NCBI RefSeq assembly: GCF_037975245.1 | Contig: NC_092580.1 | Coordinates: 8,346,501-8,410,500 of the forward strand | DNA: 64,000 bases | Source: Apostichopus japonicus | Lineage: Eukaryota; Echinodermata; Holothuroidea; Aspidochirotida; Stichopodidae | Reading direction: 5' to 3' | Part shown: positions 889 to 63,805 of the stretch, one piece after another | Numbering within the stretch: position 1 is the stretch's first letter | How the letters are laid out: each line of letters begins with the position of its first letter | Position numbers and translations under genes: made by a program | The notes under the pieces: generated by a model | Told to the model about the DNA's origin: nothing | The model's input: only the letters and a program-made list of their open reading frames with translations | The model's database searches: none

Positions 889-11403
<10,515 letters not shown>

Positions 11404-16067: not shown

Positions 16068-16313
16068 GGAAAGGATCTAAGATTGGAGTAACATGGTTCT
16101 GGGACTCATTCCTGCACCCTCTACAAAACCACCGGATATATCCGTGGGTGGCAATGTTACAGAGAGTCTGATGAGTAGTACAGCACCACATAATGTAGAT
16201 GATATGGTATCCGCCACTCTGATCACTGGTCTGACAACGTTGTATACCGAGGCACCAGTAACACCAAATCCATTCTGTATACAAATATTGTATGAAACCA
16301 TTGGACATTCACA
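16068..16313 (+). CDS. TPRA1: TPRA1 first coding exon (CDS from 16093)
   Basis: Acceptor TTTTGCAG, 25 untranslated bases, then ATG at 16093; donor GTGAGC. Encodes the 73-residue extracellular N-tail ending QILYETIGHS, matching the family YEDIGTS element. Phase 2 end. Confidence 0.9.
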
Positions 16314-19300
16314 GTGAGCATTCTTTACTCATTCCACACTGTTTGCACTAGTACAGTAGTCTTTACTGGTCTGTTGAAGTGTACTGGTGCGGTTCACAGT
16401 CCTACCAGTTGTATCTAAAGTGCTACAGCTTGGTTAGAAAACATCATTCTGTTTCTAATGCATTCACTGTAATCAAGTATAATTTCAAAAATTGAACAGT
16501 CTGATTAGCCCATGTAGATTCAAATTTGTTGAGTGTTATCATAGTACTGATAGAGTTGTAGGCCCACACAGAAATATACTAGCCTAGAGAAGTATTATTC
16601 ATAGATAATGTAAATCACTAAGATGCCATTGAGTTTACTGGGAGAATGTTCAACATATACAGTATGTGTGTTCTACAAACTTTTCTACAATTCAGTATCA
16701 GGCCATTTAGCTTCTTTGTGTATTTTGAATTCAAAATTCCAACCGTAAGAATTTGAAAATGCTTTCTTAGAAATAGCACCAATCCACAAGCATTTGTGAG
16801 TATCAAGCTTCCTTGATAGTGATATCAATGAAGTTAACCTCAAAGTTGCCCATGATTGGGCGTAGTTAACCTGCATATCAGTGTGCAAGTATGACACCTT
16901 ATATTTGAGCATTCTTTGTCAAGTTGGTACTTAGTGTAAATTCTGGTAGGTTTCTTTCTTGTCAAATGACCTGGAATGGAACTTGAGTCATCTGAACTCT
17001 GAAGCAAAATTTAGTCAGGTCAAAAATGATCTGACAATGGTTAAAAAACCCATCCTTGAAAGGTTAACTGGTTGGGATGGCCCTGAAATTATCATTATTA
17101 GAAGTTATTATTAGGAACAAGCTCACACATTGTATGAGTTTCTGCACCATCGATGCTCTAGTATTGAGCCTTACTCAACACTTTGGATATAAGGTCACTT
17201 AACAGAAGAGCGAAAATTTACACTTTCTGCTGAATTTAAGCGTAAGCTGGAAAACTGAAATGGTAATTGATAGACAATGTGACTAGAGAAAACATTCTAA
17301 ACTTAGGTTGAAATCTCATTTCAGTATCTTGTTCCTATCTCCAGATATGTATGTTTGAATGTAAACAAGTTTTACCTGATTAGCTGTTCCATACTTCAGA
17401 AAGTGACTCGTGCATAAAGGGGTCTGTGATGTCATCATTACATATGTTTTAAAGCTTTACTTTCCTAGTTTCATTGGTGTTGATATTCTACAGTTTGATA
17501 CCTTCAGAACATTCCTGTAACTGTCAATTTACCTTCATTTAAAATTTCATCACTATGTATGCAACATGTTTGTAAGAACCTTGATCTTTCTCAGAAGCTA
17601 AATGAATTTTACATTTTGAAGAAAAACAGAGACCTTTTCCACCCCCCCCCCACTCCCCCTTTAAGAAAAGATCCATGATGACATCACTAACTCTGTTGTT
17701 TCCAGATTTAGTCACAAATTTAGAAATTAGGATGTGGTTTTGATATGCAACACACATATCACTACAGTGATTTTTGTCTATTTCTGTGAATTATTTCATA
17801 AAATGATTGTTAACCAGTTTATTTATCATTTCAGACAACTGTTTGTAATTGTTTTTTCTTGTTTTTTTTCATCTATACAGTGTTCGATACTGGGATTTAG
17901 CTTTACTTATACCAAATTTCTTTTTCCTGCTGTTTTTGCTGCTAAGATCAAGAATAGCAACCTTGAAACTCCGTCAGAGTAACAGACCAATCCTCTTCAC
18001 CTTTTATGCATTAGTAAGTCATTTTATGCATAATTAGTAAGTCATTTTATGCATTAGTATGTCATTTTATGCATTAGTAAGTCATTTTATGCATTAGTAA
18101 GTCATTTTATGCATTAGTAAGTCATTTTATGCATAATTAGTAAGTCATTTCATGCATTAGTATATATATCATTTTATGCATTAGTAAGTCATTTTATGCA
18201 TTAGTAAGTCATTTTTTGCATTAGTAAGTCATTTTATGCATTAGTAGTCATTTTATGCATAATTAGTAAGTCATTTTATGCATAGTTAGTAGGTCATTTT
18301 ATGCATTAGTAAGTCATTTTATGCATAATTAGTGAGTCATTTTATGCATTAGTAAGTCATTTTATGCATTAGTAAGGCATTTTATGCATTAGTAAGTCAT
18401 TTTATGCATTAGTAAGTCATTTTATGCATAATTAGTAAGTCATTTTATGTTTAATTAGTAAGTCATTTTTTGCATAATTAGTAAGTCATTTTATGCATTA
18501 GTAGGTCATTTTATGCATTAGTAGGTCATTTTATGCATAATTAGTAAGTCATTTTATGCATAATTAGTAAGTCATTTTATGCATTAGTAAGTCATTTTAT
18601 GCATTAGTAAGTCATTTTATGCATTAGTGCATTAGTAAATGCATTAGTGCATTAGTAAATCAGTAAGTGCATTAGTAAGTCATTAAAGGAACAGTTTTAT
18701 CAAGGAACTGCTCCTATTTTTGTTTCCTAAACGGTCATATACTGCTTGTATGTTTGTTAGTTTCAATGATTCAGATAGTTTCCTATCCGTATGACTTCTT
18801 TCCAGGTATTTACCGTCACTGTTGTGAGTGTTGCTCGGGCAGTGGTTTCTATGCTGGTAGATGCAAGGAAAGACGCAGGTGATATTGCAGACACAGTGAG
18901 TTTTACTTTCAATAGAACTTATCACTGCCAGTTCTAAGAATAGACCCATTTTCTTGAATTTTACAACGGTTTGTCACAAATAAAGGAGCACTAGAGTTAA
19001 GTATTGACTTAAATGTAACATCTTAACAGAAAATTGGCAGCTTAGAAAGGTTGCTTGTTTAAGAAGTTATCAAGATTATTTCTTTCACAGTCAATATCTG
19101 TCCTATCTCAGTCCTTGTTGACAAGAATTGCATGTCAAAAGATAATAATGTTATTTGTTTGTTTCCTACTGATGAAAGTGTTTGTACATTGTTTCAATTT
19201 CATGTACTGGTGAGACATGTGGGGGACAGTATACACTTGTCCTATCCCTGTAGTCATACCAGATGCTAATGGTGAAGGGATAGGTTGAACAAACATTACA

Positions 19301-22300
19301 GGACACACACTCGGAAAACATTCATGTTAGAAGTCTTATATTAGAACCAAGAGAAAAGTATATCTTCTTAACAAAGATATTATATAAGGAAGTCATACAG
19401 GCATAAAAGTAAACCGTTGACCAATCAGAGCAGCCTAGTAGTGGAGATTCTGCTACATTATGAAAGAATTTGAGACAAGAAAGAATTAGAGGAGTTTTCC
19501 TGCTAGTAAAAGGGCACTTGAACTATTTGTTTTTGACAAGCTGAGTGATACTTACACAGTATGCTTCTCTTACATTAGGGTTATAAAGAGTGCAGCTACT
19601 TCACACTCTAGGTTTCTCAAACAGTGAGGGGTACAGGTCAGGGTAATTATAGCATGTTCTAGGTTTCTCAAACAGTAAGGGGTACAGGACAGGGTAATTA
19701 TAGCATGTTCTAGGCTTCTCAAACAGCAAGGGGTACAGCGCAGGGTAATTATAGCATGTTCTATGTTTCTCAAACAGCAGGAGGTACAAGCATAGGCGTA
19801 GGAGGTGGGGGGGGGGGGCTGCAGCCTCCCAACCAAATATTTTTGTGAAAATTCGGGCAATATGCTGAGAATGTTTTGGGCACCTACTGAGAGAAAAATA
19901 ATTTGCAATGTGTTTTTCAATGGTTAAATGTATATTATTATTATTATCATTATTTTTGTAACAAATTCCCCAAATTATAACCAATATGGAAGGGTAATAA
20001 CACGGAAAATGATTCTATGTTATTGGCATGCGATGTTATAACCGATTCATGCCTATATGATATGATATGCACATTAACATGTTGAACGTGTGCGGAGCGC
20101 GCGAAAAAGTTTGGTTACATTTTTCGGGAAAATCGTTACAGCCCCCCAAATCAAATTGGGCTCCTACGGCTATGGATACAAGGCTAGACTCAAGGTAAAT
20201 TTCTTTATCCTGCTTGTAATATACAACACTTTCAGGTATGGACAATGGTTTGTTTCGTTTTTATTTTCAGCTCTTGTGGATTATAGTGAAGTTCTTTCTG
20301 GTTGGAGTGGAACTCTGTGTAGTCATTTTTGGTGTCGGTTTCAGCCATCTTGACAGCAATTCCAGCGTCATTAACATTATACTCATCACCTCAGTAGTCT
20401 CCCTAACATATTCCATAACTCAGGTATGAAGTATGACATTCATTCCATGTCTGTAATCTTAAACAAAAGGAGAAGCAAACCCGACTATTGTCATTATAAA
20501 TGTATTGTTGTAGAGATGTTGTTGTAGAGATATTGTTGTAGAGATGTTGTTGTAGAGATGTTGTTGTAGAGATGTTGTTGTAGAGATGTTGTTGTAGAGA
20601 TGTTGTTGTAGAGATGTTGTGGTAGAGATGTTGTGGTAGAGATGTTGTTGTAGAGATGTTGTTGTAGAGATATTGTTGTAGAGATATTGTTGTAGAGATG
20701 TTGTTGTAGAGATGTTGTTGTAGAGATGCTGTTGTAGAGATGTTGTTGTAGAGATGTTGTTGTAGAGATATTGTTGTAGAGATGTTGTTGTAGAGATGTT
20801 GTTGTAGAGATGTTGTTGTAGAGATGTTGTTGTAGAGATGTTGTGGTAGAGATGTTGTGGTAGAGATGTTGTTGTAGAGATGTTGTTGTAGAGATATTGT
20901 TGTAGAGATATTGTTGTAGAGATGTTGTTGTAGAGATGTTGTTGTAGAGATGCTGTTGTAGAGATGTTGTTGTAGAGATGTTGTTGTAGAGATATTGTTG
21001 TAGAGATGTTGTTGTAGAGATGTTGTTGTAGAGATATTGTTGTAGAGATGTTGTTGTAGAGATGTTGTTGTAGAGATATTGTTGTAGAGATGTTGTTGTA
21101 GAGATGTTGTTGTAGAGATGTTGTTGTAGAGATGTTGTTGTAGAGATGTTGTTGTAGAGATATTGTTGTGGAGATGTTGTTGTAGAGATGTTGTTGTAGA
21201 GATGTTGTTGTAGAGATATTGTTGTAGAGATGTTGTTGTAGAGATGTTTATAACTAGTACCCCCCCCCCCAAAGTATGAGGTGTAAAGTCTTGTTCTTGT
21301 TGGTATGTATCAGTTTTCAGAAGTCACTCATTGAACAACCATTTGTGTGTTAATGCCAATGTTTAGATTTGCTTCTTCTTTAATCAAAGAGTTATAGTGG
21401 AATTACTTACTCAGCATGTTGTTTATGCTCTGAAATATTAGACTTGTTTTCAGTTCGTCTTTCAGTTATCTTGTTACTGTACCCTTGCTACATTTATAAG
21501 ATGTAAAATAACTAGACCATTCGGGAGTAAAGAGTAAGAATGTCAATTAGTCGTAAAACTCACTGTTTATATTCTGATTATGCAATTTCATCATCAACAC
21601 CATAAAATCATCTGGAAAAAGCAGTTTGTTGCTTTAGATAACAACAGTCAACAGTTACTTCTACAATCACATTGGTGAACACTATGTGTACTGTATGTGT
21701 AAGAGGTATGTATTCCTGTATGATAATATGTAGGTACTTCTGAACAAGGTATCAAACTCTTGGAAAAATGACAAACTAAAAATGCAATTGATGCTCCATG
21801 TCTCGTATTGTACTGGCTTGGGGAGATGAAAGATTTGAGGTCAGCAGAGGTCAAACCATGTCATGTCATGTCTCATCTATGGAGCCAAATACTCAGAACA
21901 CTTCAAAACAAATCTCTAGCAAAGAAGATTTCCTCAGCAGAGTGTCTAATACTACTTACTCTCTCTAACTGTAAAGGAATGATTGGTATTTGCTGTTATT
22001 AGTCATTTAGCAATATGTTTGGTAGTGTGTAGTAGGCACAGTATTGTGTGGTTAACAGCTAGTACTAGGTAAACATATCAAGATAGCAATATAAATATGT
22101 ATTTGTTTACCTAAAGCCATCGACGGATTCTCAAATCCTTAATATGACATCATTGCATAATCCGCTATAGATGCAAAAGTTTAATATCCGTTTCAGGAAA
22201 GTCTCTTTGTAAGAAGAATTGACTTCCTATCTCTCTTTACTGTTTCTTGTAAACCAATGCACTTCCTGGGCTACCTTGTCCAACAAATTGGTATTTTTTT

Positions 22301-25300
22301 TTTTCCCCGTCATGGACCTCACACGTTGCATATTAGTATATTCAGTTATCTTCTTCATATTCAGCTGTGTCATTTGTCAGCAGTATGAATTGTAATATTA
22401 TAATGTAATATCCATTGCATTCACACTGACATAAATTGCAGATTGGCGGTTCTTTGACAAATTTGTGATATATTTAGTATGAAAAGAAAAGACTTCCACC
22501 AGACTGTTCCCCTCATCTGCATGTCATCCAGCCTTACCCAAATCCCCTTTCATTTAATCTGTTGTATGACGAGTTGAAGTGCCTGACATAATACTATTGT
22601 ATCTTGGCATTATTATTCTTATTATTGTTTGCATTATTTGTATACTTTGCAGGGTGTTTTGGAGTTGAAGTTCCCCGATGAACACTACATAAATCCGTAT
22701 GATATATACTCCCATGGGGGTATGCTATTTTGGTCCATAAGCTCTTTCATCTTTTTCCTGGTGAGTTCTTTTCCCATTGTTAGATTACAATAGGTTGAAG
22801 TAATGGTTAGGAATCAGTATGTGGCTGTGTATTACATACAATATTCTACTTCTCAAGACAGACCTACAGTAACATATGATACCACGAATGGTATTCCAGC
22901 ATTGCAATAAATTATAGGCCAATTGCTTGGTATGTTTAGAATATGGTTGATGTGGTACCTGTAGAGGTTTGTAAGTGGTAGAGAGGTTTGTATGTGGTTG
23001 AGAGGTTTTGCAGGTGGTAGAGAGGTAGGTGGTAGGAGGTATATAGGTGGTAGAGTTTGTAAGTGGTAGAGATGTTTTAAGGTGGTTGAGAGGTTTGTAG
23101 GTGGAAGGGGGTATGTAGGTGGTAGAGAGGTTTGTAAGTGGTTGAGAGGTTTGTAGGTGGAAGAGAGGTTTGTGAGAGGTAGAGATATTTGTAGTTTGTT
23201 GAGAAATTTGAGGTGGTTGAGAGGTTTGGAGGTGGTTAAGAGGTTTGTAGGTGGAAGAGAGGTTTGTGAGAGGTAGAGAGATTTGTAGGTGGTAGAGAGG
23301 TTTGACGGTGTTTGAGAGGTTTGGAGGTGGTTGAGAGGTTTGAAGGTGTTTGAGAGGTGTGGAGGTGGTTGAAAAGTTTTTAGGTGAAAGAGAGGTTTGT
23401 GAGAGGTAGAGAGATTTGTAGTTTGTTGAGAAATTTGAGGTGGTTGAGAGGTTTGTAGGTGGTAGAGAGGTTTGTGAGAGGTAGAGAGATTTGTAGTTTG
23501 TTGAGAAATTTGAGGTGGTTGAGAGGTTTGTAGGTGGTAGAGAGGTGTGTGAGAGGTAGAGAGATTTGTAGGTGGTAGAGAGGTTTGAAGGTGTTTGAGA
23601 GGTTTGAAGGTGTTTGAGAGGTTTGGAGGTGGTTGAGAGGTTTGTAGGTGGTAGAGAGGTTTGTGAGAGGTAGAGAGATTTGTAGGTGGTAGAGAGGTTG
23701 AAGGTGTTTGAGAGGTTTGGAGGTGGTTTAGAAGTTTGTAGGTGGTATAAAGTTTTGCCATACTGAATCCTTCTCTGAGAATGTAATCATGCTAAAGTCA
23801 AACCCTCATATCTTTCCCCGTTTCAACCAGATAGTGAATGAACTCTGGACCCTTAAATCACCTCGTAAACTGAGGGCAGTGACAGGAAGGCAGTCATTTA
23901 GTTTTCTGTAAACAAATGACATGAAATTATTACCACTTGCTGACAGTATTATTACATGATTTGTGTCGAACTAAAAAATAGTCTCAATGTTATGATTTGT
24001 TCATATCAACCATATAGTAGGTGTATCAGTTGTTGACAAATGAAATGTAACAATAACATTGATTGATGGTACCCCATAGTGTTTGTGTACCTTGTGTACA
24101 GTGTTTGCTTAAGTGCTGAGTTTGTTGAGGTGGACTATGAGCCAATCAAATCTCACAAAAGTATCTATTGACTTCTTGGGATATAAATCTCTGTATTATG
24201 ATGGTTGTCAGTCATGTGTTCAGCCCTGTGCAATTATTACATTATTAACACTTTACATGTTTAATGAAACATACATGTATCGGTTTAAGACTTAGATCAT
24301 ATTACCGTCTATTGCTGAAATATTGTAACATTGAACAAGTCTTTAGCTGGAAATTCTTTACTTGCATAGGAGTCTGATAATGATAATGTTTTCTCTTTGT
24401 TCCTTTGCAGTGTTATTTTACTGTACTTATATTACCATTAACTAAAGTCAGAGAGAGAATACAATTACCAGGTCAGTAGAACCATCAGTACTTATTTCAT
24501 AGGAAATTAATTGCTTCAAGAACTTGTGAAACCTTTAAGACTTGTTCCTGCTATCCTCTAATGTAGCAACATACAGCTACTGCACAGCTAGGCCATGATA
24601 TATTTGTGCAGGGAAAACCAGATAATTACTTCTGATTCCTTGCCGTAGGCAAGAGGAACTGTACAGTAATTCTGTATTAGTTAGTTTAAAGAAAATGATA
24701 GTTTCTCTTGAGGTCAAAGGTCATTTGAGGTCAACAGAGGTAAAAGTCTGAAAACCTTGTAAACATGAAAGTAAAAGTTGACTGATACTTCTACTCTGTA
24801 TGTGGATCCACCTTAGTCATTACAGGAGTCCTATTGTTTTAGGTGGCAATGAAAGGTTAAAAGGTCAATGCTCTTGTAAACATGATAACTTCAAAGGAAA
24901 GCTGGGATGAAGTTCATATATGCTATTTGGATCCACATTAGTGAGTACAAAAACCTATGGAGGTCAACAGGGGTTAAAATCTGAAAACATTGTAAGCAAA
25001 ACTTATTGAAATTCTGCAGTGTTGGGGTAAATATTCTCACTTGAAAAATTGCAATGAATCACTAAACAATTTGGCTTTCTGGTTGTTTGTAAGGATTGCC
25101 TTGGCTTGTGACAAACATATATATAATATGAACTAAGCTATCTGAAGTAGATAATAAGTATAGTAATATATTGATATAAAGTCAGTGCTCATTATAGTAT
25201 TCATCGGTTACTGTTTGACATATAAAGTCAGTGCTCATTATAGTATGCATTGGTTGGTTACTGTCTGACATATAAAGTCAGTGCTCATTATAGTATTCAT

Positions 25301-28300
25301 TGGTTGGTTACTGTCTGACATATAAAGTCAGTGCTCATTATAGTATGCATTGGTTACTGTTTGACATATAAAGTCAGTGCTCATTATAGTATTCAGCGGT
25401 TACTGTTTGACATATAAAGTCAGTGCTCATTATAGTATTCATTGGTTGGTTACTGTCTGACATATAAAGTCGGTGCTCATTATAGTATGCATTGGTTACT
25501 GTTTGACATATAAAGTCAGTGCTCATTATAGTATTCATTGGTTACTGTTTGACATATAAAGTCAGTGCTCATTATAGTATTCAGCGGTTACTGTTTGACA
25601 TATAAAGTCAGTGCTCATTATAGTATTCATCGGATACTGTTTGACATCCAATAAAAATGCAGTTTAGTAGCCAGAATTAGATGTTAATAAAATCTTTTCT
25701 CACTCCCTGTGAAATATTCAAGGAAACTCTAGTCTGAGACTTACTTCATTTCATAGGCTTTTAACAAGAAGTTTGTAAACATCTTTTTCAATCCTTTTTT
25801 AAATAGAGTATTACCTCTGAGTGGTAATTCACAGTATTCTAAACAGCTGTATTTGCTAAGGGTTTCTTCATACAACCATGTTTCATTGTTCCTCTGAGTG
25901 GTAATTCACAGCTGTATTTGCTAAGGGTTTCTTAATATACAACCATGTTTCATTGTTCCTCTGAGTGGTAATTCACAGCTGTATCTGCTAAGGGTTTCTT
26001 AATATACAACCATGTTTCATTGTTCCTCTGAGTGGTAATTCACAGCTGTATCTGCTAAGGGTTTCTTAATATACAACCATGTTTCATTGTTCCTCTGAGT
26101 GGTAATTCACAGCTGTATCTGCTAAGGGTTTCCTTGTACAACCATGTTTCATTGTTATGCTAGATATTTCTCTTGTTCATTGTTATGTTGTATGTTATTA
26201 ACATGGTGTTGTACATTGTATTTCTTTACAGTGAAGCATTCCTTTTATATTTATGTGGCTACACTAGCAGTACTCTACCTCTGCCAGGGAATTGCAAGTC
26301 TTCTGGTTTATTTGGATTTTGACGGAGGATCCTGGTAAGTCTTTGAGTGTGTAAGGTTATGTACATTGTGACCAGAACTGAACCTAGAATTGTGTTTTGA
26401 AATGGTGATATTTAATATTCTTCAACAAAGCACCTCATATCATAAAACTAGCTTATATGTAGGTTGTCCCCTGTTCCATTGGGATTACATGGCAAAGCTA
26501 TGTTCTTGCAAAGTGTAAGTCAGTTATAACATGAACCTTTGCAGAAAGAACTACAGTATTGCTACATAGGTTGTATAAGCATACATTTTAAATATGAAAT
26601 TAAGTCCTCATAGATACTCATAGATACATGAACAAACTTGTATCACTGCATACACATTGTGTAGGTCCTCATAGATACATAACCAAACTTGTGTAACCTC
26701 ATAACCATTGTGTAGGTCCTAATAGATACATAACCAAACTTGTGTAACCTCATAACCATTGTGTAGAGGTCCTTATAAATACTTTTAAGACTTCCTTTTG
26801 ATTGTTGTTTACTCATTTGAGGTTTGCTCAAAAGGCCAAGAATCGCAAACAGGTAAATCTTACAAACATACCTTAGTTTAATTCATACTTGACCTTTACT
26901 TATTGCAAGAACCATATTTTCATGTCAAAAACAATTAAAACCAAAATAGTTTGTCCAATGTTAACTTTTTATTTGAATCACTCCATAGGCATTGGCTTTC
27001 TGGTTGTGTAGCCATGTGAGTTAAATGTTTAGTTATCACTGAAGGACTTGACAGAGTTATGACTTTATTTTTATTTGTTTGTCTTTATATGTCTTTGTTT
27101 GTCTTTATTTGTCTTCATATGTCTTTATATGTCTCTATTTGTCTTCAACAGTGCAACAGATGTCACTACCTTCCTTTACTTCAGCTTCTTTGCTCCTCTC
27201 ATCTACCTGTCATTTTTACATAATTTTTTCAGGTAAGAGTTTGTATATTCAACCTTCTTCTTACATTTGTATTATCATACCCAGGATTCATCCCTTGTTT
27301 CTCAAATGGATTCTGGTCAGTTCTCTGTGGCAGTAGCAACATATCTTTGTTAGCCAAGAAATCACAAGTGGTAGAGTAGTATGGTTGGTAGAGTAACATG
27401 GTTGGTAGAGGAGCTTTGTTGGTAGAGAAGCATGGCTGATAGAGTAACATAGTTGGTAGAGTAACATGGTTGGTAGAGATGCATTGGTGGTAGGTTGGTA
27501 GATAGGCATGGTTGGTAGAGTAACATGGTTGAAAGAGTAACATGGTTGGTAGAGAAGCATGGCTGATAGAGTAACATGGTTGTAAGAGTAGCATGGTTGG
27601 TAGAGTAACATGGTTGAAAGAGTAACATGGTTGGTAGAGTAGCATGGTTGATAGTGTAACATGGTTGTAAGAGTAGCATGGTTGGTAGAGTAACATGGTT
27701 GGTAGAGGAGCTTTGTTGGTAGAGAAGCATGGCTGATAGAGTAACATGGTTGTAAGAGTAACATGGTTGAAAGAGTAACATGGTTGGTAGAGTAGCATGG
27801 TTGATAGTGTAACATGGTCGTAAGAGTAGCATGGTTGGTAGAGTAACATGGTTGGTAGAGGAGCTTTGTTGGTAGAGAAGCATGGCTGATAGAGTAACAT
27901 GGTTGGTAGACTAACGTGGTTGGTAGAGAAGCATGGCTGATAGAGTTACATGGTTGGTAGAGTAGCATGGCTGATAAAGTAACATAGTTGGTAGAGTAAC
28001 ATGGTTGGTAGACTAACATGGTCGGTAGAGAAGCATGGCTGATAGAGTTACATGGTTGGTAGAGAAGCATGGCTGATAAAGTAACATAGTTGGTAGAGTA
28101 ACATGGTTGGTAGACTAACATGGTTGGTAGAGTAGCATGGCTGATAAAGTAGCATAGTTGGTAGAGTAACATGGTTGGTAGAGAAGCATGGCTGATAGAG
28201 TTACATGGTTGGTAGAGTAGCATGGGTGATAAAGTAACATAGTTGGTAGAGAAGCATGGTTGGTAGAGAAGCATTGGTGGTAGGTTGGTAGAGAAGCATG

Positions 28301-29795
28301 GTTGGTAGAGTAACATGGTTGGTAGAGTAACATGGTTGGTAGAGAAGCATGGCTGATAGAGTTACATGGTTGGTAGAGTAGCATGGCTGATAAAGTAACA
28401 TAGTTGGTAGAGTAACATGGTTGGTAGACTAACATGGTTGGTAGAGAAGCATGGCTGATAGAGTTACATGGTTGGTAGAGAAGCATGGCTGATAAAGTAA
28501 CATAGTTGGTAGAGTAACATATTTGGTAGACTAACATGGTTGGTAGAGTAGCATGGTTGATAAAGTAGCATAGTTGGTAGAGTAACATGGTTGGTAGAGA
28601 AGCATGGCTGATAGAGTTACATGGTTGGTAGAGTAGCATGGGTGATAAAGTAACATAGTTGGTAGAGAAGCATGGTTGGTAGAGAAGCATTGGTGGTAGG
28701 TTGGTAGAGAAGCATGGTTGGTAGAGTAATATGGTTGGTAGAGTAACATGGTTGGTAGAGAAGCATGGCTGATAGAGTAACATGGTTGTTAGAGTAGCAT
28801 GGTCGGTAGTGTGACATGGTTGGTAGAGAAGCATGCTGACAGAGTGCTACTTTGGCAGCCGGTTGTGTAAATATTTCGCAGTGTATAAACAATGTCAGGT
28901 AACTCTCTTGTTTGGCAAGGAATCACAAAGGTAACTGGCGGTCTGTTTAGACTTGCTCAAGTCTTCAGTCTTATATAAGGAATTATATAAAGCAAGACAT
29001 GCTTAACACAATATCATTTTCTCCCTTTCTTGGGAAGTTTTGGATCAAAATGTTGTAGTTAATTGTAGTCATTTGGAACACCACAGCTTTCAGATCCAAC
29101 ATACTTGATGGCAAAGATGTAGTTGGTAGAGTAACATGGTTGGTAGAGTAGTAAAGATGGTAGAGAAACATGGTTGGTAGAGTAGTAAAGATGGTAGAGA
29201 AACATGGTTGGTATAGTACAATGTTTGGTAGAGAAACATGGTTGGTAGCAAATTCCAGTACTTTCTTCAATTTCTTTTCTCCACAAGAGACATCTTTTTC
29301 GGATAAAAGTTACTTTTAGGGCTTCGTTATTACTTTTTGATTGTTAATGTAAATGAGTTAGCTTTCCATTGTAGCATGATATTTTTGTTGCTGTGGCCTT
29401 CCTTAGATCAATTCTTAAACAGCCTCTCTTGCTATCATATGCTGGCCAGGATTAGGACATTGTTAATGTTAATGAGTAGCTTACCATTGTAACATGATAT
29501 TTTTGTTGTTTTGGCCTTCCTTAGATCAACCAAACAGCCTCTCTTGCTATCATATGCTGGCCAGGATGATGACACTGATGAAGTTCATCCTCTACCGACC
29601 CCACCCTTTGTAATTTCAAAGGAGGAGCCTGTTGTCAACAGACAGACCCCACCTTACCAATCTATCTATGATAGTACAGAATTCCTTCATGGTAGCCCAC
29701 CACAGATAACTGGACAGCTGGCATTCAGAGATGGCCAAGGTGATAATGAAGAAGAAACAACTGAGGGCAAACATGCTGTACCTACATTATCATAA
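16093..29795 (+). CDS. TPRA1: TPRA1-like seven-transmembrane protein (nine coding exons)
   Basis: Orthologue of transmembrane protein adipocyte-associated 1 (TPRA40/GPR175), an orphan 7TM membrane protein implicated in Hedgehog signalling and early embryonic cell cycles in mouse. Exons: 16093-16313, 17881-18013, 18806-18895, 20271-20423, 22653-22760, 24411-24471, 26232-26334, 27152-27232, 29525-29795; 406 residues plus stop in one frame. Extracellular N-tail with NVT glycosylation site at 21-23; TM1 about 79-96 after VRYWDL; TM2 109-138; TM3 149-172; TM4 181-198; TM5 223-247; TM6 256-280; TM7 291-316; acidic, Pro-rich cytosolic tail of about 90 residues. Family hallmarks are VRYWDLALLIPN, YSHGGMLFW and VTTFLYFSFFAPLIY. 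An in-frame TAA at 16078-16080 fixes the start. It is divergent from MCM2. The tail is longer than in the human protein and poorly conserved. Confidence 0.94.
17881..18013 (+). CDS. TPRA1: TPRA1 coding exon 2 (TM1)
   Basis: Acceptor CTATACAG, donor GTAAGTCA. Encodes VRYWDLALLIPNFFFLLFLL to FTFYAL. Its last 12 bases TTTTATGCATTA and the donor form the unit of the minisatellite that follows. Confidence 0.94.
18002..18680. repeat. Minisatellite with a splice donor in each unit, TPRA1 intron 2
   Basis: About 32 units of 20-23 bp, consensus GTAAGTCATTTTATGCATTA. The first unit overlaps the last 12 bases of exon 2 and the true donor, so the array has grown from the exon-intron border. Confidence 0.97.
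18806..18895 (+). CDS. TPRA1: TPRA1 coding exon 3 (TM2)
   Basis: Acceptor CTTTCCAG, donor GTGAGTTT; 30 codons. Encodes VFTVTVVSVARAVVSMLVDA and the KDAGDIADT loop, parallel to the human VGIARAVVSMTV segment. Confidence 0.93.
19605..19790. repeat. Tandem repeat, 51-bp unit, about 3.5 copies
   Basis: Unit contains GGTTTCTCAAACAGTAAGGG and GGGTAATTATAGCATG. The hAT-like element at 19791 is inserted in the last copy. Confidence 0.9.
19791..20174. mobile_element. Short hAT-like non-autonomous element
   Basis: Ends CATAGGCGTAGGAG and CTCCTACGGCTATG are near-perfect inverted repeats. Flanks GGTACAAG (19783-19790) and GATACAAG (20175-20182) form an 8-bp target duplication with one mismatch. The inside has C/G runs and CAAATTTGGG-type segments shared with 40021-41616. 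No coding capacity. The 8-bp duplication suggests hAT; family assignment is an inference. Confidence 0.75.
20271..20423 (+). CDS. TPRA1: TPRA1 coding exon 4 (TM3-TM4)
   Basis: Acceptor ATTTTCAG, donor GTATGAAG; 51 codons. Encodes FFLVGVELCVVIFGVGFSHL and VVSLTYSITQ, close to the human VELSVIILGLAFGHLES region. Confidence 0.95.
20510..21249. repeat. Minisatellite, 15-bp unit, TPRA1 intron 4
   Basis: About 49 copies of TTGTTGTAGAGATG(T/A) in register, followed by C10. Because 15 is a multiple of three, the minus strand stays open for 289 codons; this is not a gene. Confidence 0.98.
22653..22760 (+). CDS. TPRA1: TPRA1 coding exon 5
   Basis: Acceptor TTTGCAG, donor GTGAGTTC; 36 codons. Encodes GVLELKFPDEHYINPYDIYS then HGGMLFWSISSFIFFL. 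The IYGHGG-like loop is a family signature. Confidence 0.94.
22950..23760. repeat. Degenerate minisatellite, about 17-21-bp unit, TPRA1 intron 5
   Basis: About 45 diverged copies of GAGAGGTTTGTAGGTGGTA with local higher-order blocks, for example repeated GAGATTTGTAGTTTGTTGAG. Strong strand asymmetry (G and T on plus). Confidence 0.95.
24411..24471 (+). CDS. TPRA1: TPRA1 coding exon 6
   Basis: Acceptor CCTTTGCAG, donor GTCAGTAG. Encodes CYFTVLILPLTKVRERIQLP, too short for simple ORF calling but matching the human VVILPKTPLKERISLP. Phase 1 end. Confidence 0.92.
25190..25645. repeat. Minisatellite, 41-46-bp unit, TPRA1 intron 6
   Basis: About 10 copies of a unit containing ATATAAAGTCAGTGCTCATT and ending with GGTTACTG in two length classes. 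Confidence 0.96.
25815..26155. repeat. Tandem repeat, about 63-bp unit, TPRA1 intron 6
   Basis: Five copies of a unit containing CCTCTGAGTGGTAATTCACA and GCTAAGGGTTTCTTAATATA. The first copy has an extra internal segment. Confidence 0.95.
26232..26334 (+). CDS. TPRA1: TPRA1 coding exon 7 (TM6)
   Basis: Acceptor TTTACAG, donor GTAAGTC. Encodes VKHSFYIYVATLAVLYLCQG and IASLLVYLDFDGGS. Phase 2 end. Confidence 0.94.
26605..26780. repeat. Tandem repeat, about 55-bp unit, three copies
   Basis: Unit contains CATAACCATTGTGTAGGTCC and ACCAAACTTGTGTAACCT, in TPRA1 intron 7. Confidence 0.9.
27152..27232 (+). CDS. TPRA1: TPRA1 coding exon 8 (TM7)
   Basis: Acceptor TTCAACAG, donor GTAAGAG. Encodes CATDVTTFLYFSFFAPLIYL then SFLHNFFR, the most conserved TM segment of the family. 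Phase 2 end. Confidence 0.95.
27365..28850. repeat. Large minisatellite, 17-bp unit, TPRA1 intron 8
   Basis: About 87 copies of CATGGTTGGTAGAGTAA and variants, with longer duplicated blocks (for instance the region with CATTGGTGGTAGGTTGG recurs at 27480, 28270 and 28685). Three units equal 51 bp, which keeps several minus-strand frames open. Related units reappear at 29115-29250. Confidence 0.98.
29115..29252. repeat. Outlying copies of the 17-bp minisatellite
   Basis: About eight units of GTTGGTAGAGTAACATG and AAGATGGTAGAGAAACA, separated by about 260 bp of unique sequence from the main array. Confidence 0.9.
29340..29575 (+). repeat. Direct duplication of the intron 8 / exon 9 junction
   Basis: Copy 1 at 29340-29458 and copy 2 at 29459-29575, roughly 90 percent alike. 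Both include the polypyrimidine tract, TTCCTTAG acceptor and first 45 bases of exon 9. Copy 1 reads to an in-frame TAG at 29453-29455. Confidence 0.93.
29525..29795 (+). CDS. TPRA1: TPRA1 coding exon 9 (cytosolic tail, stop)
   Basis: Acceptor CTTCCTTAG after a T-rich tract; TAA at 29793-29795. Encodes the tail STKQPLLLSYAGQDDDTDEV with PPYQSIYDSTEF further on. The YSSTQFDS-like element of the human tail resembles the latter weakly. A near copy of the acceptor and exon start lies 118 bases upstream. Confidence 0.88.
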
Positions 29796-42100: not shown

Positions 42101-45100
42101 GGTCAACCAGCAATGCCACTTCACTTCCCTCCCCACCCCCCCATCAAATAATTAAACCACATTTCACACTCTATGGACTATTATTTTACATAATGGGAAC
42201 TGCCACCACTTTGTCTTCACTTCTTGTAATAAAATACCAAAAACATAACTTAGTCATGAAGCAAGAGGCCATTTACAATTATTGGCCAAGATAAATAAAT
42301 TAATCAATTCTATTCAATTTATCAGCAATTTACCAGAAGAATGGACATTGTAACAAATAAACAAGCAATATAATACCATTCCTAGCATATAGTCCATACT
42401 GTATATAAGGAATACACTCGTAATACCATTCCTAGCATATAGTCCATATCTAAGGAATACACTCGTAATACCATTCCTAGCATATGTAGTAAAGTGAAAT
42501 TTTGTAGTGTGCAACCATTGTATTTACATGTATTATGTAATATGCCGTAACAGTCAGTTTCTTAGCGTTAGTTGGTTGCGTGTGTATTTCTTCAGTTCTG
42601 TATACGTCGTTTTAATGGCAGCATCGTCCCTGCAGAGCTCCGGGCTTCGCCTCGTCATCCCTTTGTATTTCCGTAATTTTTACTTAATCTCGGGTCGTCA
42701 ATAGCCCAGAGTTATTCATTATCTTTATTATCTGGAGTCCGTGAGGAGATGTCACCCTTCTCAGAGGTAGGATGCCTCAGGTTTTGAATGGTTCGGCTTC
42801 TGGCTCGAAGCCACTGGTTTCCCAAGATGGCGGACCTACCACAGTATCAGTATACAGCGAACTAGCGGCGATGGAGTCTTGATGTCCGCGAGCGTGGAGA
42901 GCTTCCTTTACCGCGAGCGTACAGTCCTCTTCTTCGTTTCCGCGAGCGAGCTGACTTCAGTATAGTAAGAGTTTAAGTCATAAATATTTAATGCCGTATG
43001 TACCCTTATTGTTTAATTGAATCGTAGTTTTTGAATTGTTGCCCCATTGGCTAGGTTGTACTTCACTGTACAAAGTACGTATGTTAGGTTGTATTTGGAC
43101 CTTGGTCCTATGGGTATATAACGTGTATTGTTAAACACGTGTGTTATATTGCGTACTTTTATACTGTAGTGTTACAGTACCTTGAGTTTCAGTATACAGA
43201 GAGCTATTAACAGTTACATGTATTGTACTGTATTGACAGTTCAGTTGTATTGAGTAAGATTTATTGTACCTGTATTTTGAGTATTGTACTGCTCGCAGTG
43301 TAAAGAGTGTACGTATTCGTATTTTGTATTTTGAACATGATTGTTACTTATAGAGTTGTCTCAGAGCTTGTCCTTTAATCTTAGCCTTTATGGATAGCTA
43401 TAGAGTGCCAAGTTTCTTGAGAGTTTGTGGGTTCAGGAGGTGGAAATTCCTGCTGTCTAGGAACAGTTTAGGTGAAAAGGCCTATAATGTGTTGCAGCTG
43501 GCATGTGTTGCCCTAGGCTGGCCATTACGAAGGTGTAAAATTCCTCGCCTGTTGGCAAACGTTTTATATTATTTATGCAGTTTATTTCATAATGGTCATT
43601 TTACATTTTTCCTTATACACTTTATGCATTGTTGTACAGTATTGTAAGAGTACAAGATTGATTGCGGTTATTGATTCTTTAATTGTATTCATGTCGTATG
43701 AATATTACTTAGTTTGAGCATAGGTTCTGTGAATATTTCATAGGTTGCGTATAGATTTTTCCCCGAGTCAGGATAGTTTTAATTAAGATAGTAAAGAGTC
43801 CATTAAGCCATTTAAGTTCAGTATGCCATTTGTTCATTTGTATATTTTCATTTTCATATTGTGTAGAGTTTGTAATAAAAGTCAGCCGTTGTTTCAACGC
43901 AAGAAAACTATTGCATCCTCATTGATCACTTATGAGTTCGAAGCGAAGGACCCCAAACCCGGTAATTTCCCCCGCCATCCGCGGCTCGCTTCACATATAG
44001 TCCATATATAAGGAATACACTCGTAATACCATTCCTAGCATATAGTCCATATATAAGGAATACACTCGTAATACCATTCCTAGCATATAGTCCATATAAG
44101 GAATACACTCATAATACCATTCCTAGCATATAGTCCATATATAAGGAATACACTCGTAATACCATTCCTAGCATATAGTCCATATAAGGAATACACTCGT
44201 AATACCATTCCTAGCATATAGTCCATATAAGGAATACACTCGTAATACCATTCCTAGCATATAGTCCATATATAAGGAATACACTCGTAATACCATTCCT
44301 AGCATATAGTCCATATATAAGGAATACACTCGTAATACCATTCCTAGCATATAGTCCATATAAGGAATACACTCATAATACCATTCCTAGCATATAGTCC
44401 ATATATAAGGAATACACTCGTAATACCATTCCTAGCATATAGTCCTTATATAAGGAATACACTCATAATACCATTCCTAGCATATAGTCCATATATAAGG
44501 AATACACTCGTAATACCATTCCTAGCATATAGTCCTTATATAAGGAATACACTCATAATACCATTCCTAGCATATAGTCCATATATAAGGAATACACTCG
44601 TAATACCATTCCTAGCATATAGTCCATATATAAGGAATACACTCGTAATACCATTCCTAGCATATAGTCCATATAAGGAATACACTCATAATACCATTCC
44701 TAGCATATAGTCCATATATAAGGAATACACTCGTAATACCATTCCTAGCATATAGTCCTTATATAAGGAATACACTCATAATACCATTCCTAGCATATAG
44801 TCCATATAAGGAATACACTCGTAATACCATTCCTAGCATATAGTCCTTATATAAGGAATACACTCATAATACCATTCCTAGCATATAGTCCATATATAAG
44901 GAATACACTCGTAATACCATTCCTAGCATATAGTCCATATATAAGGAATACACTCGTAATACCATTCCTAGCATATAGTCCATATATAAGGAATACACTC
45001 GTAATACCATTCCTAGCATATAGTCCATATATAAGGAATACACTCGTAATACCATTCCTAGCATATAGTCCATATAAGGAATACACTCATAATACCATTC

Positions 45101-48100
45101 CTAGCATATAGTCCATATATAAGGAATACACTCGTAATACCATTCCTAGCATATAGTCCATATAAGGAATACACTCGTAATACCATTCCTAGCATATAGT
45201 CCATATATAAGGAATACACTCGTATTACCATTCCTAGCATATAGTCCATATATAAGGAATACACTCGTAATACCATTCCTAGCATATAGTCCATATAAGG
45301 AATACACTCATAATACCATTCCTAGCATATAGTCCATATAAGGAATACACTCATAATACCATTCCTAGCATATAGTCCATATATAAGGAATACACTCGTA
45401 ATACCATTCCTAGCATATAGTCCTTATATAAGGAATACACTCATAATACCATTCCTAGCATATAGTCCATATAAGGAATACACTCGTAATACCATTCCTA
45501 GCATATAGTCCTTATATAAGGAATACACTCATAATACCATTCCTAGCATATAGTCCATATATAAGGAATACACTCGTAATACCATTCCTAGCATATAGTC
45601 CATATATAAGGAATACACTCGTAATACCATTCCTAGCATATAGTCCATATATAAGGAATACACTCGTAATACCATTCCTAGCATATAGTCCATATATAAG
45701 GAATACACTCGTAATACCATTCCTAGCATATAGTCCATATAAGGAATACACTCATAATACCATTCCTAGCATATAGTCCATATATAAGGAATACACTCGT
45801 AATACCATTCCTAGCATATAGTCCATATAAGGAATACACTCGTAATACCATTCCTAGCATATAGTCCATATATAAGGAATACACTCGTATTACCATTCCT
45901 AGCATATAGTCCATATATAAGGAATACACTCGTAATACCATTCCTAGCATATAGTCCATATAAGGAATACACTCATAATACCATTCCTAGCATATAGTCC
46001 ATATATAAGGAATACACTCGTAATACCATTCCTGGCATATAGTCCATATATAAGGAATACACTCGTAATACCATTCCTAGCATATAGTCCTTATATAAGG
46101 AATACACTCGTAATTTACCATTCCTAGCATATAGTCCATATAAGGAATACACTTGTAATACCATTTCTACAATATAGTCCATATAAGGTATACACTTATA
46201 ATTTACCATCTCTACAATATAGTCCATATAAGGTATACACTTATAATACCATTTCTACAATATGGTCCATATAAGGAATACACTCGTAATACCATTCCTA
46301 GCATATAGTCCATATATAAGGAATACACTCGTAATACCATTCCTAGCATATAGTCCATATATAAGGAATACACTCGTAATACCATTCCTAGCATATAGTC
46401 CATATAAGGAATACACTCATAATACCATTCCTAGCATATAGTCCATATATAAGGAATACACTCGTAATACCATTCCTAGCATATAGTCCATATAAGGAAT
46501 ACACTCGTAATACCATTCCTAGCATATAGTCCATATATAAGGAATACACTCGTAATACCATTCCTAGCATATAGTCCATATATAAGGAATACACTCGTAA
46601 TACCATTCCTAGCATATAGTCCATATAAGGAATACACTCATAATACCATTCCTAGCATATAGTCCATATATAAGGAATACACTCGTAATACCATTCCTGG
46701 CATATAGTCCATATATAAGGAATACACTCGTAATACCATTCCTAGCATATAGTCCTTATATAAGGAATACACTCGTAATTTACCATTCCTAGCATATAGT
46801 CCATATAAGGAATACACTTGTAATACCATTTCTACAATATATTCCATATAAGGTATACACTTATAATTTACCATCTCTACAATATAGTCCATATAAGGTA
46901 TACACTTATAATACCATTTCTACAATATAGTCCATATAAGGTATACACTTATAATTTACCATTTCTACAATATGGTCCATATAAGGTATACACTCGTAAT
47001 ACCATTCCTAGCATATAGTCCTTATATAAGGAATACACTCATAATACCATTCCTAGCATATAGTCCATATATAAGGAATACACTCGTAATACCATTCCTA
47101 GCATATAGTCCATATATAAGGAATACACTCGTAATACCATTCCTAGCATATAGTCCATATATAAGGAATACACTCGTAATACCATTTCTAGCATATAGTC
47201 CATATAAGGTATACACTTGTAATACCATTTCTACAATATAGTCCATATAAGGTATACACAAGTTTATAATTTACCATTTCTACAATATAGTCCATATAAG
47301 GTATACACTTATAATACCATTTCTGGGCAGGTCCAAGCTATTGTATCCCTAGAAGCCAAATATCAAACCTTACTGAAGCACCCTAAATGTGGTGTCATGT
47401 TAAAGCTGAATTATTGAAGTTTCAGATTTTCATAATTTTTTTGAATTTTTTTGCCTATTCAAATAATTACAGCCGGCTAATTTGCATAAATTCAAATTGC
47501 AGTGTGACGTACGGGACATTTGGAATCCTATTTCCCTGCCAGCAATATGAACTAATTGAATATAAGTTATGTGGGACATGATACACCCTTCCTTCCAATA
47601 ATTTTGACATATTATGTTTGGGGGTTCATCAATTAAATATGCTAATTAGCTAGTGTACAAATACTGATGTCCCGTACGTCACAATTTTCAGCACTTCTTT
47701 TCAAGTTTTGATATGGAGGAACAATTTTTTTTTTGTGATATTCTATAAAGTTCTAATAAAGAACATTGCTCAACAGAATCCAGCCCCAAAAAATCGAAAT
47801 AATATTCACTACAAATCTAATTATCAAAATTAAAAATGTGACGTACAGGACAAAACGTGACGTACGGGACATAGTGTGGTGGAAACCCTGTATTTATACA
47901 TAATAAACATGCATGGGCTCCAATGGGGACCTCTACTGGAAATCTTCCAATGCTTACAAATTTATTTTGTTGAAAGCTGGTAGTTGCAACTTATAATCCC
48001 CGATGCCTGAAGAGCACATCATGGCTTCAAATAAACTATTGACCGATGACCACCAACAGCCCAGGTGTTGTTCAATAAACTATCGGGAAGTCAATTGTGT

Positions 48101-60384: not shown

Positions 60385-63300
60385 TATGACTCTTATGGAC
60401 CCGTTTATTTATTTTAAATAATGTTAAGTACACTGTGTATTATTTTCAGCAACATTTATGGACAATTTGGGTGTTTCTCGGGGTTAAAACTCCACCTCGA
60501 TTTTTTCCAAAATATTGCGATCACTTATGACTAATGGAACCGTTTACTTATTTTAGACGACTGTGTTAAACACACAATGTAGTAATTTCAGCTACATTGA
60601 TGGACAATTAGGGTGTTTCTCGGGGTTAAAACTCAGCTCCACCTCAGGGTAGCTCAGTAACGCGATTGATTTTGGAAAATTCAAAACTTCGATTTTTGAC
60701 CAAATTTAATACATTTTTACGAAAAATTGCGATAACTTATGACTCTAATGGACCTGTTTATTAATTGTAGACTATGTTAAATATACTATGTAGTAATTTC
60801 AGCTACATTGATGGACAATTAGGGTGTTTCTCGGGGTTAACACTCAGCTCCACCTCAGGGTAGCTCAGTAACGCGATTGATTTTGGAAAATTCAAAAATT
60901 CGATTTTTGACCAAATTTAATAAATTTTTACGAAAAATTGCGATAACTTATGACTCTAATGGACCCGGTTACTTATTGTAGACTATGTTCAATACACTAT
61001 GTATTAATTTCAGCTACATTGATGGACAATTAGGGTGTTTCTCGGGGTTAACACTCAGCTCCACCTCAGGGTAGCTCAGTAACGCGATTGATTTTGGAAA
61101 ATTCAAAACTTCGATTTTTGACCAAATTTAATACATTTTTACGAAAAATTGCGATAACGTATGACTCTAATGGACCCGTTTATTAATTGTAGACTATGTT
61201 CAATACACTATGTAGTAATTTCAGCTACATTGATGGACAATTAGGGTGTTTCTCGGGGTTAAAACTCAGCTCCACCTCAGGGTAGCTCAGTAACGCGATT
61301 GATTTTGGAAAATTCAAAACTTCGATTTTTGACCAAATTTAATACATTTTTACGAATAATTGCGATAACGTATGACTCTAATGGACCCGTTTATTAATTG
61401 TAGACTATGTTCAATACACTATGTAGTAATTTCAGCTACATTGATGGACAATTAGGGTGTTTCTCGGGGTTAACACTCAGCTCCACCTCAGGGTAGCTCA
61501 GTAACGCGATTGATTTTGGAAATTTTAAAAATTCGATTTTTGACCAAATTTAATACATTTTTACGAAAAATTGCGATAACGTATGACTCTAATGGACCCG
61601 TTTATTAATTGTAGACTATGTTCAATACACTATGTAGTAATTTCAGCTACATTGATGGACAATTAGGGTGTTTCTCGGGGTTAAAACTCAGCTCCACCTC
61701 AGGGTAGCTCAGTAACGCGATTGATTTTGGAAAATTCAAAACTTCGATTTTTGACCAAATTTAATACATTTTTACGAAAAATTGCGATAACTTATGACTC
61801 TAATGGACCCGGTTACTTATTGTAGACTATGTTCAATACACTATGTATTAATTTCAGCTACATTGATGGACAATTAGGGTGTTTCTCGGGGTTAACACTC
61901 AGCTCCACCTCAGGGTAGCTCAGTAACGCGATTGATTTTGGAAAATTCAAAACTTCGATTTTTGACCAAATTTAATACATTTTTACGAAAAATTGCGATA
62001 ACTTATGACTCTAATGGACCCGGTTACTTATTGTAGACTATGTTCAATACACTATGTATTAATTTCAGCTACATTGATGGACAATTAGGGTGTTTCTCGG
62101 GGTTAACACTCAGCTCCACCTCAGGGTAGCTCAGTAACGCGATTGATTTTGGAAAATTCAAAACTTCGATTTTTGACCAAATTTAATACATTTTTACGAA
62201 AAATTGCGATAACGTATGACTCTAATGGACCCGTTTATTAATTGTAGACTATGTTCAATACACTATGTATTAATTTCAGCTACATTGATGGACAATTAGG
62301 GTGTTTCTCGGGGTTAACACTCAGCTCCACCTCAGGGTAGCTCAGTAACGCGATTGATTTTGGAAATTTTAAAAATTCGATTTTTGACCAAATTTAATAC
62401 AGTTTTACGAAGAATTGCGATAACTCATGACTCTAATGGACCCGTTTATTAATTGAAGACTATGTTCAATACACTATGTAGTAATTTCAGCTACATTGAT
62501 GGACAATTAGGGTGTTTCTCGGGGTTAACACTCAGCTCCACCTCAGGGTAGCTCAGTAACGCGATTGATTTTGGAAATTTTAAAAATTCGATTTTTGACC
62601 AAATTTAATACATTTTTACGAAGAATTGCGATAACGTATGACTCTAATGGACCCGTTTATTAATTGTAGACTATGTTCAATACACTATGTAGTAATTTCA
62701 GCTACATTGATGGACAATTAGGGTGTTTCTCGGGGTTAAAACTCAGCTCCACCTCAGGGTAGCTCAGTAACGCGATTGATTTTGGAAAATTCAAAACTTC
62801 GATTTTTGACCAAATTTAATACATTTTTACGAAAAGTTGCGATAACGTATGACTCTAATGGACCCGTTTGTTAATTGTAGACTATGTTCAATACACTATG
62901 TAGTAATTTCAGCTACATTGATGGACAATTAGGGTGTTTCTCGGGGTTAACACTCAGCTCCACCTCAGGGTAGCTCAGTAACGCGATTGATTTTGGAACA
63001 TTCAAAAATTCGATTTTTGACCAAATTTAATACATTTTTACGAAAAATTGCGATAACGTATGACTCTAATGGACCTGTTTATTAATTGTAGACTATGTTC
63101 AATACACTATGTATTAATTTCAGCTACATTGATGGACAATTAGGGTGTTTCTCGGGGTTAACACTCAGCTCCACCTCAGGGTAGCTCAGTAACGCGATTG
63201 ATTTTGGAAATTTTAAAAATTCGATTTTTGACCAAATTTAATACAGTTTTACGAAGAATTGCGATAACTCATGACTCTAATGGACCCGTTTATTAATTGA

Positions 63301-63805
63301 AGACTATGTTCAATACACTATGTAGTAATTTCAGCTACATTGATGGACAATTAGGGTGTTTCTCGGGGTTAACACTCAGCTCCACCTCAGGGTAGCTCAG
63401 TAACGCGATTGATTTTGGAAATTTTAAAAATTCGATTTTTGACCAAATTTAATACATTTTTACGAAAAGTTGCGATAACGTATGACTCTAATGGACCCGT
63501 TTGTTAATTGTAGACTATGTTCAATACACTATGTATTAATTTCAGCTACATTGATGGACAATTAGGGTGTTTCTCGGGGTTAACACTCAGCTCCACCTCA
63601 GGGTAGCTCAGTAACGCGATTGATTTTGGAAAATTCAAAACTTCGATTTTTGACCAAATTTAATACATTTTTACGAAGAATTGCGATAACTTATGACTCT
63701 AATGGACACGTTTATTTTTTGTTTTTGGTCGACTGTGTTAAATACACTTTGTAGTAATGTTAGCCACATTTATGGATATTTTTGGTGTTTCTCGGGGTTA
63801 CAACT
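60385..63805. repeat. Satellite array, 211-bp unit
   Basis: About 16 units with TGGACAATTAGGGTGTTTCT, AGCTCCACCTCAGGGTAGCT and CGATTTTTGACCAAATTTAA. The core is very homogeneous and both edge units are diverged. Some variants recur every four units (about 844 bp). Confidence 0.98.

Follow-up and report, generated by a model that had tools for sequence, protein, structure and literature searches.

A probable mirage-type border repeat at the exon 2 donor of a TPRA1-like gene

The described systems closest to the repeat reported here are the mirages of amphioxus, whose founding paper is reportedly that of Canestro et al. 2002, and the minisatellite of human IFI6, which is said (in the title of Turri et al. 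1995) to supply several splice donors. In the mirages, as set out in the sections of two reports that deal with them, tandem repeats span exon-intron boundaries on either the donor or the acceptor side in the genes for Adh3, the globins BflGb6 and BflGb9, troponin C and PGBD5, with units of 10-72 bp in Adh3 and 150-160 bp in BflGb6 (PMC3087553, PMC3902484). The same sections describe length instability at Adh3 and a copy number that differs between two globin-gene haplotypes, and state that the repeats leave the regular splicing of the Adh, globin and troponin C genes undisturbed (PMC3087553, PMC3902484); a model outlined in one of them proposes mirages as a possible route to new introns (PMC3087553). 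Part of a further account relates that two downstream repeat units of IFI6 (also called 6-16 or G1P3) serve as donors and give rise to three mRNAs (PMC4526556), and an excerpt on genes in human segmental duplications reports that variable internal tandem repeats at exon-intron borders can alter intron structure (PMC2812944). Here we analyse a stretch of 64,000 bases of contig NC_092580.1 (the window), in which the end of exon 2 of a TPRA1-like gene on the + strand is the first copy of a minisatellite that runs on into intron 2.

Anatomy of two border duplications

The array and the sites within it that matter to splicing are the following (TRF, Tandem Repeats Finder; decoys are the junctions other than the true donor; a slash marks the junction).

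17881-18013, + strand: TPRA1-like exon 2, 133 nt, whose final 12 nt (18002-18013) form the initial, incomplete repeat copy
18002-18687, + strand: probable mirage-type minisatellite with a 20/23-bp unit and 34 TTA/GT junctions, 33 of them decoys (TRF and junction count)
18014-18019, + strand: true exon 2 donor GTAAGT, the sole GT of 66 in 18014-18690 that gives the 406-residue frame
18035-18037, + strand: in-frame TAG; the first decoy creates it where exon 2 meets exon 3, and any longer exon 2 includes it
18628-18687, + strand: degenerate 3' end of the array (sequence and TRF)

Between 18002 and 18628, TRF reports a 20-bp unit in 29.7 copies with 87% matches, and degenerate rows continue to 18687. 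Cutting the array at TTA/GT yields 34 units, 19 of them 20 bp and nine 23 bp long, with six of other lengths (the last of the 34 is truncated by the end point set for the count). Because the first of these junctions, between 18013 and 18014, is the end of exon 2, the array starts within that exon. Exon 2 closes with the 12 coding bases TTTTATGCATTA (codons F, Y, A and L), with which the repeat unit also ends; the other eight bases of the unit are GTAAGTCA. All 12 occurrences of the full 20-mer, TTTTATGCATTAGTAAGTCA, on the window's + strand fall within the array, the exon-border copy among them. An earlier note on this DNA had proposed that the unit is the exon-intron border beginning at the exon 2 donor, and the unit does contain both the donor GTAAGT and 12 exon bases; the identity that the note drew between the exon end and the "second half" of the unit likewise stands, although the shared part, 12 of 20 bases, is slightly more than a half.

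The copies resemble the true donor closely. An identical 9-mer, TTA/GTAAGT, is present at 22 of the 34 junctions, that is, at the true donor and 21 decoys. When donors were scored with a simple matrix, the true exon 2 donor obtained 4.11, the lowest value among the gene's eight (the others range from 6.45 to 11.44), and 27 of the 34 junctions, the true one included, lay within 2 bits of this score or above it; one decoy, at 18332, outscores the true donor. The 26 decoys in this range bear out the earlier count of "more than 25 near-identical donors".

The same gene contains a second duplicated border, on the acceptor side of exon 9.

29341-29473, + strand: upstream duplicate of the border at the exon 9 acceptor, comprising the end of the intron and the first part of exon 9; a decoy acceptor lies before 29407
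29460-29588, + strand: genuine exon 9 acceptor border, with exon 9 starting at 29525

These two segments form a direct duplication in which 116 of 133 aligned columns are identical and the acceptors lie 118 bp apart, the upstream copy carrying the same CCTTCCTTAG acceptor; its use would lead to a predicted protein of 332 amino acids with a shortened tail. In all, 43 splice borders of the TPRA1-like gene and the adjacent MCM2 were each searched for in their own intron, with a junction 20-mer as the query for donors and a 23-mer for acceptors. Recurrence was found at only two borders: the exon 2 donor matched at 20 places with no more than 4 mismatches and the exon 9 acceptor at two places with no more than 5, each count including the border itself. 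These two also lead in local alignment, scoring 100 and 128, respectively, against 24 and 24 for the best of 20 shuffled queries. With scores of 51, 44 and 42 (shuffled 22, 27 and 24), the next three are an MCM2 donor at 889, another at 5303 and the acceptor of exon 8 at 27152; in these cases the flanking sequence does no more than adjoin an array. Three further borders lie slightly above their shuffles (28, 25 and 24 vs 23, 23 and 22). The remaining 35 of the 43 borders gave no self-copy score above that of shuffled queries; these counts, like those of arrays near intron ends given below, retain the MCM2 borders near 9887, 8679 and 2919, which are uncertain or one base off (GGTACAGC, TCCCATTA and GCCAGAAA).

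Donor choice and the frames it opens

All 66 GTs in 18014-18690 were joined in turn to exon 3 and the open reading frame was read. Only the donor at 18014 gives the 406-residue protein; the one at 18018 gives 144 residues, and the other 64, from 18037 on, all give one identical frame of 125 residues ending in LVSHFMHN, because the first decoy forms the TAG at 18035-18037 at its junction and every exon 2 longer than that includes it. The joined sequence agrees with the earlier statement that use of the first decoy (18037) lengthens the exon by 23 bases and creates TA/G at the junction with exon 3, and the 406-residue protein does require that splicing single out the first among many equal donors, as the note had argued. 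Since all array donors from 18037 meet the same stop, array length cannot change the protein that is made; at most it might shift the proportion of transcripts that are productive. The truncated messages are predicted targets of nonsense-mediated decay.

We consider it likely that the exon 2 array is a mirage, largely neutral, whose first donor is the one in use. Tandem amplification would have started from the border between exon 2 and intron 2 of the TPRA1-like gene, with the exon-side bases held as a fixed, coding first copy, and slippage or unequal exchange would then have carried the unit into the intron in about 30 copies. The spliceosome would mostly take the 5'-most donor, the one attached to the genuine exon, and occasional use of array donors from 18037 on would produce one truncated frame, presumably removed by decay; because they share this single decay-prone outcome, the decoys would be largely neutral baggage. 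Donor sequence, being nearly equal among the copies, cannot explain the choice of the first, which would have to depend on the flanking exon or on the order of transcription.

Several points weigh against this account. The use of the first donor is deduced from the reading frame, and any kinship with the amphioxus mirages would be conjectural. Competing donors of equal strength often favour the acceptor-proximal one, which would here favour the decoys. Predicted RNA folding, in addition, barely sets the first donor apart: its mean unpaired probability is 0.68, compared with 0.56 (sd 0.18) over the 33 decoys, seven of which are more open. Concealment of the decoys by RNA structure was considered as an explanation of donor choice in its own right and rejected, as there was little separation in any of three folded stretches, in which 7 of 33, 2 of 8 and 6 of 33 decoys were more open than the first donor.

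The conservation of the units bears on two proposals of a functional role for the decoys. The comparison covered 28 of the 34 junction units (the first, at 18014, and five after 18607 were dropped); the units were anchored on TTA/GT, so changes in those bases are invisible, and the copies are not independent. Changes affect 10 of 168 positions in the donor hexamer and 7 of 422 elsewhere (Fisher P 0.011), or 8 and 7 when distinct kinds of change are counted (P 0.041). Omitting one awkwardly aligning 24-bp unit, which holds four of the 17 events, leaves 7 of 162 vs 6 of 405 (P 0.059), and P becomes 0.11 if two like neighbouring changes are also counted once, so the excess of hexamer changes is fragile. 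Extra conservation of the decoy hexamers over the rest of the unit was not found among the 28 units, which fits neutrality. We therefore regard as highly improbable a U1 small nuclear ribonucleoprotein landing platform that would support use of the weak first donor or guard the intron against early polyadenylation: GTAAGT is indeed dense, with 23 occurrences in 677 bases here against 16 in the rest of the window's + strand, but such a platform should show extra conservation of its hexamers, and they have no such advantage over the other positions of the unit, the events leaning the opposite way.

The array could instead act as a dosage device, in which a share of transcripts is spliced from decoys, nearly all of these meet one early stop and are destroyed, and TPRA1 output follows from the length of the array; the earlier note had suggested such a dependence on length, should slippage be tolerated, but the frames do not support it. 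In its favour are the 21 decoys that carry the true donor's 9-mer, the higher score of 18332, the rank of the true donor as the weakest of the gene's eight and the single 125-residue frame reached from 64 of the 65 decoy GTs. We nevertheless judge it very unlikely, as the decoy hexamers bear no sign of being kept, and the amphioxus mirages of Adh, globin and troponin C are said, in the sections cited, not to disturb splicing (PMC3087553, PMC3902484). A more elaborate proposal, very unlikely in our estimate, is a length-tunable poison-splicing rheostat in which allelic array length would set TPRA1 dosage and the exon 9 duplication would add a tail-less isoform of 332 amino acids; it builds on the contest between the gene's weakest donor and 21 copies of its own 9-mer, and on the one stop met by the array donors.

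Gene model and surroundings

Nine exons joined at GT/AG borders give a single open frame of 406 amino acids on the + strand.

16093-29795, + strand: TPRA1-like gene, coding span (exon joining and Pfam match)
16093-16313, + strand: exon 1 (this and the following exons by exon joining)
18806-18895, + strand: exon 3, phase 0
20271-20423, + strand: exon 4
22653-22760, + strand: exon 5
24411-24471, + strand: exon 6
26232-26334, + strand: exon 7
27152-27232, + strand: exon 8
29525-29795, + strand: exon 9
889-10383, - strand: MCM2-like gene, head-to-head with the TPRA1-like gene (Pfam)

The protein matches PF10160 (Tmemb_40) over residues 72-320 with 207.5 bits and an E-value of 3e-61 (Pfam; cut-off 25), and the exon 2/3 junction, at residue 118/119, falls within this stretch, which is one continuous match across the junction. 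The name TPRA1 is one that we take from similarity to the human protein, and TPRA1 and MCM2 presumably adjoin in human too; the identification given in the earlier note holds as far as the Pfam domain, the MCM2 neighbour and this similarity reach. No solved structure matched the 406-residue protein up to E 1, and a scan of the window against Rfam at gathering thresholds returned no matches. In intron 3, the ends of the segment 19790-20180 appear by eye to be roughly mirrored (GTAGGAGGT...CTCCTACGG), perhaps as those of an inserted element.

The model also speaks to the position of the exon 2 end. If it were wrong and another donor were used, four other GTs inside exon 2 would be available, one of which, at 17882, would drop nearly the whole exon yet keep a frame of 362 amino acids. 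All four, however, score lower (-5.81 to 0.39 vs 4.11) and lead to 362, 97, 129 and 131 amino acids, so that none restores the 406-residue frame, which PF10160 matches in one stretch across the junction. Frame and score thus disfavour alternative upstream donors and leave the exon 2 end where it had been predicted, and an error in this part of the model seems highly improbable.

Within the MCM2-like gene, MCM, MCM_OB and MCM2_N Pfam matches were found in three of the five open reading frames taken as its pieces; the other two gave no Pfam match, and these, together with further mapped exons, are ones that we assume from similarity to belong to MCM2.

The window as a whole is rich in repeats, with 33 arrays (merged by hand from TRF) occupying 19,478 of its 64,000 bases, about 30%. 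Among them are an array at 43994-47321 with a period of 45 bp and its multiples and a 211-bp array at 60500-63800. A 10-bp array, CTTTATTTGT, at 27058-27147 stops 4 nt short of exon 8, thereby supplying the pyrimidine tract of that exon's acceptor. The arrays at 1-876 and 4867-5284 lie in MCM2 introns and begin 12 and 18 nt past donors whose last exon bases are 889 and 5303 (- strand). We asked how closely arrays approach intron ends, using 14 hand-merged arrays in closed introns (array 1-876, whose intron extends beyond the window, was excluded). Two of the 14 lay no more than 5 nt from an intron end, against 0.28 expected (P 0.028), three no more than 20 nt, against 1.0 (P 0.062), and four no more than 35 nt, against 1.7 (P 0.062); at the donor end only, the same distances held one, two and three arrays against 0.14, 0.50 and 0.85 expected (P 0.14, 0.08 and 0.04). 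As six such tests were made, nothing firm follows, and the case for a general crowding of arrays at splice sites is weak.

In a window of this kind an array near some splice site is unsurprising, and the three within 20 nt of an intron end would suit the idea that an unrelated intronic minisatellite happens to abut exon 2. This coincidence is nevertheless scarcely credible, for the unit holds the exact last 12 coding bases together with the donor. Chance adjacency is contradicted, and as a candidate ruled out, by the exact shared 20-mer (20/20).

Comparison with known systems

Set beside IFI6, the exon 2 array of the TPRA1-like gene is similar in that minisatellite units carry splice donors, and differs in that its unit is 20 or 23 bp and its donors from 18037 on all reach one stop. 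The IFI6 unit is 12 bp long, in frame and located at the end of exon 2, whereas in-frame extension of the exon was not found among the decoys here, 64 of 65 giving 125 amino acids and one 144. The repeats of human segmental duplications concern, in the excerpt referred to above (PMC2812944), recent paralogs and novel introns, whereas an old intron seems to have been kept here. Among the matches listed, titles in the TPRA1/GPR175 literature make no mention of such an array, which is no proof of its absence in print.

The likeness to the amphioxus mirages extends further. As in those repeats, the exon 2 array spans an exon-intron boundary (12 exon bases and the donor) and the exon 9 acceptor is copied, and the copies carry AG/GT signals, with 34 TTA/GT junctions at exon 2 and the decoy acceptor before 29407. 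The 20/23-bp unit lies inside the range of the Adh3 mirages (10-72 bp), and the 118-bp spacing at exon 9 falls between the two reported ranges (10-72 and 150-160 bp). The differences are that another gene is affected, that there are about 30 copies and that two separate borders of one gene are duplicated; what is new here is this combination of a donor-side and an acceptor-side border duplication in a single gene.

The locus offers a clean natural test of how a single donor is selected when many share one 9-mer; the outcome can be read from the frame, as a single donor choice gives the full protein. Its two border duplications add weight to the view that mirages arise repeatedly in genomes rich in minisatellites and may give rise to new introns, as envisaged in the model sketched for amphioxus (PMC3087553). 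The array is most likely not a new kind of element but a further case of mirage-type border repeats, and, should the host not be an amphioxus, it would extend that kind to animals outside the lineage where the name was coined.
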